From an uncultured Aquimarina sp. (GTDB lineage: Bacteria > Bacteroidota > Bacteroidia > Flavobacteriales > Flavobacteriaceae), in assembly GCA_937958985.1 (NCBI GenBank), contig CALGLV010000011.1, positions 1 to 64,000 of the forward strand: a stretch of 64,000 nt of DNA, in the 5' to 3' direction. This document shows positions 3,939 through 63,907 of the stretch, piece after piece. Below the pieces are notes generated by a model that worked only from the letters and a program-made list of their open reading frames with translations, made no database searches and was not told the DNA's origin. The position numbers and the translations under genes were made by a program. The stretch's first letter is position 1, and the number at the start of each line of letters is the position of its first letter.

Positions 3939-3976
3939 AGCCAAAGAGCTTACTGCTATTAGCCAAAAGCTATAAC
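3939..3976. repeat. Degenerate heptad repeat upstream of hemF
   Basis: GC dinucleotides recur at 3940, 3948, 3955, 3962 and 3969, giving spacings of 8, 7, 7 and 7 within AGCCAAA, TGCTATT and AGCTATA-like units. The array ends two bases before the hemF ATG. The same class occurs at 8971-9050, 9765-9801 and 63806-63907. Confidence 0.6.
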
Positions 3977-3977
3977 G

Positions 3978-4886
3978 ATGAAAAAACAATTTTACAAATA
4001 CATAGAACAGCTTCAAGATCAAATTTGCAATGCTTTAGAAAAGCAAGATAAAAACGCAAAATTTAAAGAAGATTTATGGGAACGCCCTGAAGGCGGTGGC
4101 GGACGAACTCGAGTAATTGAAGGCGGAGACGTTATTGAAAAAGGGGGGGTGAATATTTCAGCAGTTCATGGGCCTTTGCCTAAAGCCATGCAAGCGTACT
4201 TTAAAGTAGAAGATGTTGATTTTTTTGCCTGTGGTTTAAGTTTAGTAATTCATCCTAAAAACCCTATGGCACCCACAGTACATGCTAATTGGCGTTATTT
4301 TGAAATGTATAATAAGCAAGGTGAAATTGTAGATCAGTGGTTTGGAGGCGGACAAGATTTAACGCCTTATTATTTGTTTGAAGAAGATGCAATTCATTTT
4401 CATCAAACGTGTAAAAATGCCTGCGACAAACACGACACTTCTTTTTATAAAAAATACAAACAAAAGTGCGATGAGTATTTTTATAATGCACACCGAAATG
4501 AAGGTAGGGGTATTGGAGGCTTGTTTTTTGATTATTGCAAAGCTGAAAACGGAAAATCTATTGAAGATTGGTTTAATTTTGTAACCGAGGTCGGAAATAG
4601 CTTTGTAGCAGCTTATGTGCCTATTTTAGAAAAAAGAAAGCATTTAAAGTTTACCAAAGCACAAAGAGATTGGCAAGAAATACGAAGAGGTCGTTACGTG
4701 GAGTTTAACCTAGTACACGATAAAGGAACTTTATTTGGGTTGCGAACAAACGGACGTATAGAAAGTATATTAATGAGTCTTCCGCCACATGTACAATGGG
4801 TATATGATCATCATCCAAAAGAAGACTCCGCAGAAGCCGAGTTGTTAGAGGTTTTGAAAAACCCAAAAGATTGGGTGGCTTATTAA
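3978..4886 (+). CDS. hemF: Oxygen-dependent coproporphyrinogen III oxidase
   Basis: HemF converts coproporphyrinogen III to protoporphyrinogen IX by two O2-dependent oxidative decarboxylations, late in haem synthesis in the cytosol. The 302-residue length is normal, and the conserved blocks WERPEGGGGRTRVIEGG, WRYFEMYN, WFGGGQDLTPYY and RGIGGLFFDY are all present. It lies about 54 kb from hemACDE in this window rather than beside them. A degenerate 7-nt repeat occupies the bases directly before its ATG. The MBOAT gene follows after 15 bases. Confidence 0.97.
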   Translation: MKKQFYKYIEQLQDQICNALEKQDKNAKFKEDLWERPEGGGGRTRVIEGGDVIEKGGVNISAVHGPLPKAMQAYFKVEDVDFFACGLSLVIHPKNPMAPTVHANWRYFEMYNKQGEIVDQWFGGGQDLTPYYLFEEDAIHFHQTCKNACDKHDTSFYKKYKQKCDEYFYNAHRNEGRGIGGLFFDYCKAENGKSIEDWFNFVTEVGNSFVAAYVPILEKRKHLKFTKAQRDWQEIRRGRYVEFNLVHDKGTLFGLRTNGRIESILMSLPPHVQWVYDHHPKEDSAEAELLEVLKNPKDWVAY

Positions 4887-7551: not shown

Positions 7552-8952
7552 ATGAGTAAGACATTATTTGACAAAGTATGGGATTCTCACGTTGTGAGAA
7601 GTGTTGAGGATGGACCAGACGTGTTGTTAATCGACCGTCATATGGTACACGAAGTAACCAGTCCAGTAGCTTTCTTAGGAATTAAGAATCGTGGTATTGG
7701 AGTGCTTTATCCTAATAAAACATTTGCTACGGCAGATCATAATACACCTACAATCAATCAGCACTTACCAGTGCAAGACCCACTTTCTGCAAACCAATTA
7801 AAGGCTTTAGAAGAAAATGCAGCGGCGCACGGTATTAGCCACTGGGGATTAGGACATGAAAAAAATGGTATTGTACACGTTGTAGGGCCGGAATACGGTA
7901 TCACTCAGCCAGGAGCAACTATTGTTTGCGGTGATTCACATACATCTACGCACGGTGCCTTTGGAGCAATTGCTTTTGGTATCGGAACCTCAGAAGTAGA
8001 AATGGTATTGGCAACGCAATGTATTATGCAGCCAAAACCGAAAAAAATGAGAATCAATATTAAGGGAGACCTTAATTTTGGAGTTACTCCAAAAGATGTT
8101 GCTTTATACATTATTTCAAAATTAACTACTTCGGGAGCTACAGGATATTTTGTAGAGTACGCAGGAGAAGTTTTTGAAAACATGACTATGGAAGGTCGTA
8201 TGACCGTTTGTAACTTAAGTATTGAGATGGGTGCTCGTGGAGGAATGATTGCTCCCGATGAGAAAACTTTTGAATACATTAAAGGCCGCGAACATACTCC
8301 AAAAGGAGCTGCTTGGGATAAAGCAAAAGTATATTGGGATACGTTAAAAACAGATTCTGATGCTACTTTTGATAAAGAATTGACTTTTGAAGCTTCGGAT
8401 ATTGAGCCAATGATTACTTATGGAACCAATCCAGGAATGGGTATTGGAATCTCTAAAAGTATTCCTAATGCTAAAGACGTTCAGGGTGGAGAATCTACTT
8501 ACAAAAAGTCTTTAGGGTATATGGATTTTAATGAAGGTGAAGATATGATTGGTAAGCCAATTGACTTTGTTTTTATTGGAAGTTGTACTAACGGGCGTAT
8601 CGAAGATTTTAGAGCTTTTGCTTCTATTATCAAAGGACGTAAAAAAGCAGATCATGTAACAGCTTGGTTAGTACCAGGTTCACATAAAGTGGAAGCTGCA
8701 ATAAAAGAAGAAGGTATTTTAGATATTATTCATGAATCTGGTTTTGAATTACGTGAGCCAGGATGTTCAGCTTGTTTAGCAATGAATGACGATAAAGTTC
8801 CTGCAGGGAAGTTAGCAGTAAGTACTTCTAACCGAAACTTTGAAGGACGCCAAGGGCCAGGATCTAGAACATTGTTAGCTTCGCCATTAGTGGCAGCAGC
8901 AGCAGCGGTAACAGGTAAGGTAACCGATCCTCGTGAATTAATGACAAAATAA
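7552..8952 (+). CDS. leuC: 3-isopropylmalate dehydratase large subunit
   Basis: LeuC with LeuD isomerises 2-isopropylmalate to 3-isopropylmalate in leucine synthesis; the same enzyme can process citramalate toward isoleucine. The protein has 466 residues and the aconitase-fold iron-sulfur ligands Cys345 (GSCTNGR), Cys405 and Cys408 (GCSACLAMN). It heads a cluster with leuD and a citramalate/isopropylmalate synthase gene. The 155-base upstream spacer holds a 15-bp palindrome and a TAAATTCG -7-like box. No leucine-rich leader peptide was found. Confidence 0.98.
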
Positions 8953-8970
8953 TTCGCTTTGCGAACAAAC

Positions 8971-9050
8971 TATCAGCTATAAGTTATTAGCTAATAGTAT
9001 TTTTTAAAATTTTGGCAGGTAGCTTATAGCTAATAGCCGAAAGCTAAAAC
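8971..9050. repeat. Degenerate heptad repeats between leuC and leuD
   Basis: Two arrays share a strict 7-nt period. The first has GC/GT at 8976, 8983, 8990 and 8997; the second has GC at 9015, 9022, 9029, 9036 and 9043. Units resemble AGCTAAT, AGCTTAT and AGCCGAA. The repeats fill most of the 105-base spacer and end eight bases before the leuD ATG. Confidence 0.7.
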
Positions 9051-9057
9051 ATAAAAA

Positions 9058-9654
9058 ATGGCATACGATAAATTTGAAATATTAAAAAGTACGGCAGTTC
9101 CATTATCAATAGAAAATGTGGATACTGACCAAATAATACCAGCTCGTTTCTTGAAAGCAACTGAGCGTAAGGGGTTTGGGGATAATTTGTTCCGTGACTG
9201 GAGGTATAATAATGATGAATCTCCAAAAGCTGATTTTGTATTAAATGACAGTACATACTCAGGAAAAATATTGGTTGGAGGAAGAAACTTCGGGTCAGGA
9301 TCGTCTCGTGAACATGCAGCTTGGGCAGTTTACGATTATGGATTCCGTTGTGTAATCTCTAGTTTTTTCGCAGATATCTTTAAAGGAAACTGTTTGAATA
9401 TTGGAGTACTTCCTGTGCAAGTTAGTGCTGCTTTTGCAGATAAAATTTTTGCAGCTATAGCAGCAGATCCTAAAACTGAAATTGAAGTTAGCTTACCAGA
9501 ACAGAAGGTAACGCTTTTGGCTACTGGCGAAAGCGAGTCTTTCGATATCAATGGATATAAAAAAGAGAACATGCTTAACGGTTTTGACGATATTGATTAC
9601 CTTCAAGAAATGAAAGAGGAGATTAAAGCTTTTGTTGCAAACTCCCCTTTATAG
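9058..9654 (+). CDS. leuD: 3-isopropylmalate dehydratase small subunit
   Basis: This is the 198-residue swivelling small subunit that pairs with LeuC to form isopropylmalate isomerase in the cytosol. The family motifs NVDTDQIIPARFLK and GSGSSREHAAWA are present, and the length is that of a bacterial LeuD. It follows leuC but is set apart by 105 bases of 7-nt repeats. A strong hairpin with a T-run (9685-9718) lies just downstream, so transcription may partly stop before the next synthase gene. Confidence 0.98.
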   Translation: MAYDKFEILKSTAVPLSIENVDTDQIIPARFLKATERKGFGDNLFRDWRYNNDESPKADFVLNDSTYSGKILVGGRNFGSGSSREHAAWAVYDYGFRCVISSFFADIFKGNCLNIGVLPVQVSAAFADKIFAAIAADPKTEIEVSLPEQKVTLLATGESESFDINGYKKENMLNGFDDIDYLQEMKEEIKAFVANSPL

Positions 9655-9684: not shown

Positions 9685-9718
9685 AAAAGCGTTTTGACTA
9701 TGAAGTCGAAACGCTTTT
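9685..9718 (+). terminator. Intrinsic terminator after leuD
   Basis: AAAAGCGTTTTGACT pairs with AGTCGAAACGCTTTT around a four-base loop, with one G-T wobble, and runs into a T-rich tract. It may separate leuCD from the synthase gene downstream. Confidence 0.75.
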
Positions 9719-9764
9719 GTTATTTAATATCAATACCTTAAACTTGTTTTAAGTTTATACAAAA

Positions 9765-9801
9765 ATAGCTAATGGCCTATAGCCTATAGCTCAAAGCTGA
9801 A
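9765..9801. repeat. Degenerate heptad repeat before the citramalate/isopropylmalate synthase gene
   Basis: GC dinucleotides fall at 9768, 9775, 9782, 9789 and 9796, an exact 7-nt period through units such as AGCCTAT and AGCTCAA. The array ends four bases before the ATG. Confidence 0.7.
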
Positions 9802-9804
9802 ATA

Positions 9805-11334
9805 ATGAGTAAACGATATATAGAAATAATGGACACCACACTCCGAGATGGTGAACAAACCTCAGGAGTTTCATTTTCTGCTTCAGAAAAATTAACCTTA
9901 GCAAAACTATTGCTTTTAGAGCTTAAAGTAGATCGTATTGAAGTTGCTTCTGCAAGAGTTTCAAAAGGTGAATTTCAGGCTGTAAAAGATATTACAGCAT
10001 GGGCTAAAGGGCATGATTTATTAGATAAAATTGAAGTGTTATCGTTTGTAGATAAAGGAATTTCTATTGATTGGATGCTGGATGCTGGAGCAAAGGTTCA
10101 AAACCTGCTCACCAAAGGCTCGTTAAATCACCTAACGCATCAACTTAAAAAAACGCCAGAACAACATTTTTCGGATATACAAGCTAATATTGAATTAGCC
10201 AATAGTAAAGGAATAGTTACCAATGTGTATTTAGAAGATTGGAGTAATGGAATGCGCGATTCAAAGGAATATGTGTTTCAATATTTAGATTTTTTAGTCG
10301 ATCAGCCTATAAAACGTATTTTATTACCGGATACTTTAGGAGTGTTAACTTATGAAGAATCTAAGTCTTTCGTTGCAGAGCTCACAAAACGTTATCCAAA
10401 TACGCATTTCGATTTTCATGCACATAATGATTATGACTTAAGTGTAGCTAATGTAATGGAAGCTTTAAAGTCAGGAGCCCACGGTTTGCATTTAACTATT
10501 AATGGAATGGGTGAACGAGCAGGAAACGCACCTATGGCAAGTGTGATAGCTGTTATAAACGATTTTTTAAGTGCTGATATTGAAATAGGAGTAGATGAAA
10601 AAGCTCTTTATAAGGTAAGTAAACTTGTTGAAAATTTTTCTGGTTTTAGAATCCCTGTAAATAAACCAGTAGTAGGTGCTAATGTATTTACTCAAACCGC
10701 AGGAATACATGCAGATGGCGATAATAAAAAGAATTTGTATTTCAACGATTTGATGCCTGAACGTTTTGGGCGAAAAAGAAAATATGCTTTAGGTAAAAGT
10801 TCGGGTAAAGCTAATATTGAAAAAAACCTTCAGGAATTAGGTTTAGAACTGAACCAAGAAGAAATAAAAAAAATAACCAAACGTATTATAGAACTAGGTG
10901 ATAAGAAAGAGGTATTGACTAAAGATGATTTACCTTATATTATTTCAGATGTTTTAGATACCAATATTGTTGAAACTAAAGTTGTTGTAGAGTCTTATGT
11001 GTTAACTCATGCAAAAGGTTTAAGACCATCGACAACCGTTTGTGTAAGTTTTGATGGCGAGTTGATAGAGGCTCATGCCCAAGGCGACGGACAGTTTGAT
11101 GCCTTTATGAATGCACTTCATAAATTATATGCAGAGAAGGGAAAATCAATTCCCGAATTGATCGATTATTCTGTACGGATACCACCAGGGAGTCATTCAG
11201 ATGCCTTGTGTGAAACAGTAATTACTTGGAAGGATAGCGAAAAAGAGTTTATTTCACGAGGATTAGATAGCGACCAAACGGTGTCGGCTATAAAAGCAAC
11301 TGAAAAAATGCTAAATATTTTAGAGATTGTATAG
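9805..11334 (+). CDS. LeuA-family synthase, probably (R)-citramalate synthase
   Basis: This 509-residue enzyme has a TIM barrel with TLRDGEQ (Arg14, Asp15) and metal-binding HAH in FDFHAHNDYD, then a LeuA-type allosteric domain (about 370-500). It would condense acetyl-CoA with a 2-keto acid. From memory it resembles the Leptospira citramalate synthase more than standard LeuA: it shares VDRIEVASARVSKGE, NLLTKGSL and NVYLEDWSNG. Leu79, Leu102 and Tyr142 line up with that enzyme's pyruvate pocket at a constant offset of two. It could still be 2-isopropylmalate synthase. It lies with leuCD, which serve both pathways; a terminator and heptad repeats separate it from leuD. Confidence 0.75.
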   Translation: MSKRYIEIMDTTLRDGEQTSGVSFSASEKLTLAKLLLLELKVDRIEVASARVSKGEFQAVKDITAWAKGHDLLDKIEVLSFVDKGISIDWMLDAGAKVQNLLTKGSLNHLTHQLKKTPEQHFSDIQANIELANSKGIVTNVYLEDWSNGMRDSKEYVFQYLDFLVDQPIKRILLPDTLGVLTYEESKSFVAELTKRYPNTHFDFHAHNDYDLSVANVMEALKSGAHGLHLTINGMGERAGNAPMASVIAVINDFLSADIEIGVDEKALYKVSKLVENFSGFRIPVNKPVVGANVFTQTAGIHADGDNKKNLYFNDLMPERFGRKRKYALGKSSGKANIEKNLQELGLELNQEEIKKITKRIIELGDKKEVLTKDDLPYIISDVLDTNIVETKVVVESYVLTHAKGLRPSTTVCVSFDGELIEAHAQGDGQFDAFMNALHKLYAEKGKSIPELIDYSVRIPPGSHSDALCETVITWKDSEKEFISRGLDSDQTVSAIKATEKMLNILEIV

Positions 11335-52840: not shown

Positions 52841-52875
52841 AATTCATAATTCATAATTCTCAATTCCTAATTTAG
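52841..52875. repeat. Degenerate AATTCNN heptad repeat upstream of lysS
   Basis: Five consecutive 7-nt units, AATTCAT, AATTCAT, AATTCTC, AATTCCT and AATTTAG, end six bases before the lysS -7 box. The unit shares ATTCA with the perfect ATTCAAC array at 1-142. Confidence 0.75.

Positions 52876-62166: not shown

Positions 62167-63907
<1,741 letters not shown>

Follow-up and report, generated by a model that had tools for sequence, protein, structure and literature searches.

The window analysed here is the first 64,000 nucleotides of contig C11 in the genome of an uncultured Aquimarina sp., and coordinates refer to it unless another contig is named. An earlier note on this DNA had named genes in it, and the names hemF, leuC, leuD, CimA-like citramalate synthase, lysS and groEL hold. 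On the plus strand, leuC (7552-8952; NCBIfam TIGR00170) lies upstream and leuD (9058-9654; NCBIfam TIGR00171) downstream of a spacer that carries an element with two arms. The left arm, AACTATCAGCTATAAGTTATTAGCTAATAGT (8968-8998, plus strand), keeps an exact 7-nt phase when the sequence is read directly. The right arm, GGCAGGTAGCTTATAGCTAATAGCCGAAAGCTAAAACA (9014-9051, plus strand), ends 6 nt upstream of the leuD start codon (ATG at 9058) and fits AGCNNNN x4 at 9021-9044 with no mismatch. When the spacer is folded, the left arm pairs with the right (z -3.3). A short palindrome, TTCGCTTTGCGAA (8953-8965), abuts the leuC stop codon, and similar small palindromes are found in several relatives (L099-L102).

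Further arrays occur in the window. Before citramalate synthase there is a single right arm, AGCTAATGGCCTATAGCCTATAGCTCAAAGCTGAAATA (9767-9804, plus strand), which directly abuts the ATG at 9805; this array is present in the close relative L099, and none was found in relatives L100-L102. The spacer between leuD and citramalate synthase also holds a terminator-like hairpin, AAAAGCGTTTTGAC-TATGAA-GTCGAAACGCTTTTGTT (9685-9721), so the array may not be strictly operon-internal. On the minus strand, the groS-groL element consists of the groL right arm, AGCTAACAGCTAAATGCTGGAAGCTATAAAG (63807-63838; groL start codon at 63801), which is followed by one 8-nt step, and a left arm that reads GCTATTGGCTATGGGTTATTGGCCTTTAGCT in gene orientation (63874-63904); the lag-7 score of the whole spacer has p<0.0005. 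The stretch at 3940-3977 (plus strand), directly before the hemF ATG at 3978, is weakly AGC-phased: it has one mismatch to AGCNNNN x4, with p=0.027 for the AGC phase and p=0.72 for lag 7. Upstream of lysS, Tandem Repeats Finder reports an AATTCAT/AATTCNN array (52841-52872, plus strand; lag-7 p<0.0005), which is single-armed, lies in a divergent spacer and differs in its unit from the AGC family. Finally, the contig starts with a perfect ATTCAAC array, an exact 7-periodic run of 142 nt (1-142, assigned to neither strand).

At 8968-9052, 9767-9804, 63807-63904 and 52841-52872, none of 2000 dinucleotide shuffles of the respective spacer reaches the observed lag-7 score, and AGC-phased matches in the window number 18, compared with 2.6 expected. 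Rfam gives no match above its gathering score in the window. Thus, of the AGCNNNN arrays in the earlier note, those before leuD, citramalate synthase and groL stand and the one before hemF is weak; the single 8-nt steps that it saw at two sites are present, before hemF and groL. It was also right that the array before lysS shares the period and has another unit. The ATTCAAC array is perfect and lies at a contig end. Its proposal that six loci form one dispersed family is correct in that a dispersed degenerate heptad family exists, but the six loci fall into three or more distinct kinds.

Perfect 7-nt runs of 136 nt end two other contigs as well, C50 of the same genome and one in genome G022. 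The lengths of such arrays are therefore taken as assembly limits, and the ATTCAAC array is probably longer than the 142 nt assembled. The Aquimarina genome has further perfect heptad arrays, of ATTGAGA (G000:C35:5844-5973) and of AGCATTC (at the end of C50; L031:10665-10800). In genome G007, units of the dispersed families themselves form perfect arrays, AATCTAA (~93 copies) and AGCCAAC, of at least 400 nt. The G007 arrays are what one would expect if the elements arose neutrally, by replication slippage in 7-nt steps with palindrome correction by template switching, in spacers that tolerate them; heptamers, moreover, rank first among the long simple repeats of many bacteria (Mrazek et al. 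2007, as cited in PMC4679880). For reasons that appear with the evidence below, we regard such a neutral origin as unlikely.

The genome (2.12 Mb in 52 contigs, 80.5% completeness) has Aquimarina as its nearest relatives by LeuD. The earlier note had made a genome-wide excess of 7-nt periodicity the test of its proposal. In 670 kb chosen independently of any matches, intergenic DNA shows only background autocorrelation at lag 7 (z 0.9), and so does each spacer class (z -1.0 to 0.5). By the note's own test, a 7-nt period that pervades the intergenic DNA of this genome is thereby ruled out. The AGC-phased pattern itself gives 39 matches versus 0 in the reversed control, and 77 versus 7 when the pattern is longer and more mismatches are allowed. 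Hence a specific AGC-phased family is real, though the generic period is not raised.

These matches group into ~13 loci, which with few exceptions lie in same-strand spacers immediately upstream of start codons, the right arms being ~0-20 nt from most start codons; several sites are single-armed. The loci include trpF-trpB, hemF, leuC-leuD, leuD-cimA, groS-groL, argE-argH, argG-argC and the region upstream of argG, together with sites before tyrA, before DAHP synthase and at sufS-sufE, which bears out the remark on housekeeping genes: most arrays lie close to biosynthetic or housekeeping genes. An excess in same-strand spacers, relative to the genome's own share of them, does not reach significance (p 0.06; p 0.18 in relatives), a result that suits neutral slippage. 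At trpF-trpB, the two genes overlap or nearly so in the majority of the other genomes of this class, so that a conserved array is rejected there and the present one looks lineage-specific. In one distant genome, L306, an array of AAACCCA heptads precedes trpB.

For the leuC-leuD junction, 80 loci were fetched by their LeuD protein, the choice being blind to the spacer, and the 73 spacers of at least 30 nt, from Flavobacteriaceae, Sphingobacteriaceae, Chitinophagaceae and Spirosomataceae, were analysed. The best lag is 7 in 58 of the 73, with lags 14 and 21 next. The lag-7 match is 0.515 versus 0.320 in shuffles, with a z of 25.8 that is descriptive only, the species of this set not being independent samples. 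The spacer after leuD at the same loci shows no lag-7 signal (z 1.3), and the second spacer after leuD shows periods of both 7 and 8. In the spacer two genes past leuD, still within this operon region, L112, L128, L133, L138 and L150 have 8-nt arrays of the AACTTAGA/GAACCTTA type; in that spacer, period 8 rivals 7.

The units at leuC-leuD differ between lineages: AGCYAAA in Aquimarina, some Maribacter, a Lutibacter and Dyadobacter; AAATCAA, AAATCTA or AGCYTAA in Flavobacterium; ATTGATA in Muricauda and Flagellimonas; GACTATN in Mucilaginibacter and others. Evidently, the leuC-leuD spacer keeps its 7-nt rhythm across many Bacteroidota while the unit gets swapped. It is periodic in ~80% of the species, as against 0-8% of ordinary tandem spacers in which heptad arrays pass the score threshold, a disparity that counts against neutral slippage.

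The earlier note had described only the array before the start codon and had overlooked that inverted arms lie at both edges of the spacer. In spacers of at least 95 nt, the lag-7 signal reaches z 21 over the 40 nt that follow leuC and z 23 over the 40 nt that precede leuD, compared with only 6.6 in the middle. The two halves of a spacer pair with each other (mean z -3.2 relative to halves shuffled separately), and the left arm contains the spacer's own right-arm unit in reverse complement in 31 of 40 spacers; a match to another unit type was seen in 0 of 80 tests. Most leuC-leuD spacers thus carry two inverted arms of matching unit type, one at each edge.

An A-rich tail of a few to ~20 nt separates the right arm from the start codon; the transcript has no T-run there, so that an intrinsic terminator is not indicated. 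AGC-family elements have their T-rich arm on the left and their A-rich arm on the right in all spacer classes (motif counts 76:5 and 83:16), and this orientation relative to the spacer is identical in tandem, convergent and divergent spacers. Such polarity is not universal, the left arm being A-rich in Desertivirga (L163) and in L129. Many AGC palindromes of Dyadobacter are nearly perfect and occur in tandem as well as convergent spacers. One Dyadobacter spacer (L179:6084-6238) contains a nested palindrome with outer AGC-type arms and inner GGAGGAA/TTCCTCC heptads.

A tree built on the flanking leuC-leuD sequence of 54 Flavobacteriaceae requires at least 12 changes of unit type; inside Flavobacterium, the AGC, AATC-GTT and AATC-TA types are intermingled. 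Because left and right arms match in type, they switch together. A simultaneous change in both arms is not what neutral slippage predicts. In seven Flavobacterium genomes, the GTT-centred pattern AATCNNNAATCGTTAATCNNNAATC (at most one mismatch) has 108 sites; close inverted pairs of it are arranged -/+ in 11 cases and +/- in 0, and 40 of 59 exact matches have AAA as the three bases ahead of the GTT heptad, which gives a common ordered core, AATCAAAAATCGTTAATC. The AATC-GTT type is therefore a dispersed repeat family and not a random heptad array. Many loci, in more than one species, share this ordered core with its position-specific heptads, which again speaks against slippage; the AATC family largely shows what common descent of copies at different loci would leave, such as identical variant heptads in order. 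In Flavobacterium xanthum (G130:C25:19833-20856), ~10 AATC-GTT cores lie on one strand within 1 kb, many of them ~65 nt apart; this spacing is a higher-order tandem array.

In other genomes, the dominant families are AGC in Dyadobacter (143 matches versus 1 in the control), ATTG in Muricauda and AATC in F. limicola, and some genomes have two. Interiors are not common to the copies within Dyadobacter, as judged by eye, unlike in a classical MITE. Genes for Y1 transposases (PF01797) do not track the number of elements, and none lies beside any listed array; PF01797 is absent in G058, G063 and G125 and marginal in G062. An origin by a Y1/RAYT transposase is consequently unsupported.

An invariant core inside a unit that differs between lineages could also mean that the arrays are putative binding sites of a heptad-reading DNA- or RNA-binding protein that co-evolves with the unit. 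Here the conservation of the arms is of interest: across 11 Flavobacterium AATC-GTT loci, the arms are 0.89 and 0.93 identical, compared with 0.62 for leuD fourfold sites and 0.47 for the loop, and the right arm is more identical than the fourfold sites in 55 of 55 pairs, values that are biased upward because the loci were picked by unit type. Arms more conserved than synonymous sites would suit such a protein, although homogenisation by other copies could produce the same conservation without selection. No candidate protein is at hand, however, and a single genome can carry more than one unit family (AGC together with AATC in G057), which makes a dedicated reader very improbable in our judgement.

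A further possibility is a selected RNA structure, that is, an intercistronic mRNA hairpin that acts on stability, processing or translation uncoupling, for which heptads would be a convenient build of complementary arms. Hairpin potential is indeed higher in heptad leuC-leuD spacers (mean z -3.2, n=57) than in random tandem spacers (-1.5; p 8e-9). The position of the right arm shortly upstream of the start codon, with its A-rich tail, would fit, and the STRR hairpins of cyanobacteria likewise lie between hupS and hupL, also the subunits of one enzyme (PMC2670836). Against this stand four observations: (I) on the transcript strand, G-U pairs in the stems are not in excess over A-C (36 versus 70; 13 versus 33 when shuffled), in a test that is weakened by the shared ancestry of the stems; (II) only one compensatory pair is found among 31 in Flavobacterium, in an aligned set that varies too little for stem covariation; (III) the leuC-leuD spacers of heptad-less species, several of them short, are no more structured than random; (IV) the same palindromes occur in convergent spacers. 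Since the spacers of heptad-less species are as unstructured as random, the hairpin is dispensable, and a universally required leuC/leuD hairpin is ruled out. In view of (I) to (III), an RNA role of the heptad elements is possible and no stronger claim is made; that selection on the transcript is the main explanation seems to us rather unlikely.

Taken together, the reading that we prefer, and to which we give about an even chance, is that the AGC arrays are REP/STRR-like dispersed non-coding palindromes whose arms are made of degenerate 7-nt units. It builds on direct observations, namely the periodicity, the matched inverted arms, the concerted switching of units, the dispersal of the Flavobacterium core and the high occupancy of leuC-leuD. 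The uniform orientation relative to the spacer and the conservation of the arms also speak for it; against it are that no copying enzyme was found, that the Dyadobacter copies have no interior in common and that several sites of the Aquimarina genome are single-armed. The units here are AGCYAAN in the right arm and their complement, NTTRGCT, in the left, one arm at each edge of a short gene spacer, and related bacteria combine this plan with other units (AATCNNN, ATTGNNN, GACTATN and others). The palindromes may behave as families at the DNA level, spreading by some presumed copying mechanism and being replaced whole, both arms at once, while individual arms would shrink, and presumably lengthen, in 7-nt steps. 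Once transcribed, a palindrome would form a hairpin between two cistrons. The occupancy of leuC-leuD may have been kept since the element is useful there, the likeliest benefit being an effect of the intercistronic hairpin on mRNA stability or on translation uncoupling of the two subunits. A more far-reaching version, in which Bacteroidota keep a heptad palindrome at particular junctions, leuC-leuD foremost, with period and architecture constant across families and the unit now and then replaced in both arms together, and in which some factor or process recognises the 7-nt period itself, strikes us as quite unlikely.

To our knowledge, heptameric repeats have been noted for decades in cyanobacteria and a few other bacteria, with no function given. 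The leuC-leuD junction offers one locus with many natural alleles in culturable species, which makes the heptad-repeat question testable, and Flavobacterium supplies a defined dispersed core for such tests of heptad function. The literature searched, which covered few subscription papers, contained no description of heptad hairpins in Bacteroidota.

Several known systems invite comparison. REPs are not built of heptads and associate with RAYT (Y1) transposases. Like the REP and BIME elements of Proteobacteria, the present elements are short, dispersed extragenic palindromes, many of them between operon genes; unlike REPs, they have no association with a RAYT/Y1 transposase. A defined sequence, as REPs have, is seen in the Flavobacterium AATC-GTT core (108 sites in 7 genomes), whereas the AGC family of the Aquimarina genome is degenerate. 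The perfect ATTCAAC, AGCATTC and ATTGAGA arrays of this genome resemble long simple sequence repeats and contingency loci, from which most elements described here differ in being degenerate and ordered.

We know of no report of a conserved orthologous junction with units swapped across families for the cyanobacterial STRRs. The likeness to cyanobacterial heptameric repeats that the earlier note drew is apt for the dispersed family of degenerate heptads described here: STRRs (short tandemly repeated repetitive sequences) have 7-bp units (PMC2670836), and they share with the present elements tandem 7-nt intergenic units and a potential for hairpins between adjacent co-transcribed subunit genes. 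They differ in phylum and units, the host here being a member of the Bacteroidota with a LeuD nearest to Aquimarina, and the likeness is one of description. TAACTGA direct repeats are known from marine Beggiatoaceae, Cyanobacteria and five Bacteroidetes (MacGregor 2015, PMC4679880), mostly just before start codons and with no functional pattern of genes; they are described as a single fixed heptamer repeated a few times in direct orientation, with no structure predicted, and in Flexibacter litoralis one set lies reverse-oriented after a stop codon (PMC4679880). The heptamers here similarly lie just upstream of start codons, and the reverse set of F. litoralis resembles our left arm; the elements here are instead degenerate, with two inverted arms and many unit families. 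The TAACTGA unit is absent among the window's units (AGCNNNN, ATTCAAC, AATTCNN), and AACTGAT x4 was seen only in the relative Allomuricauda (L130). The elements thus resemble the known STRR and TAACTGA repeats and differ from them in unit, in degeneracy, in their two-arm plan and in the swapping of units at a conserved junction.
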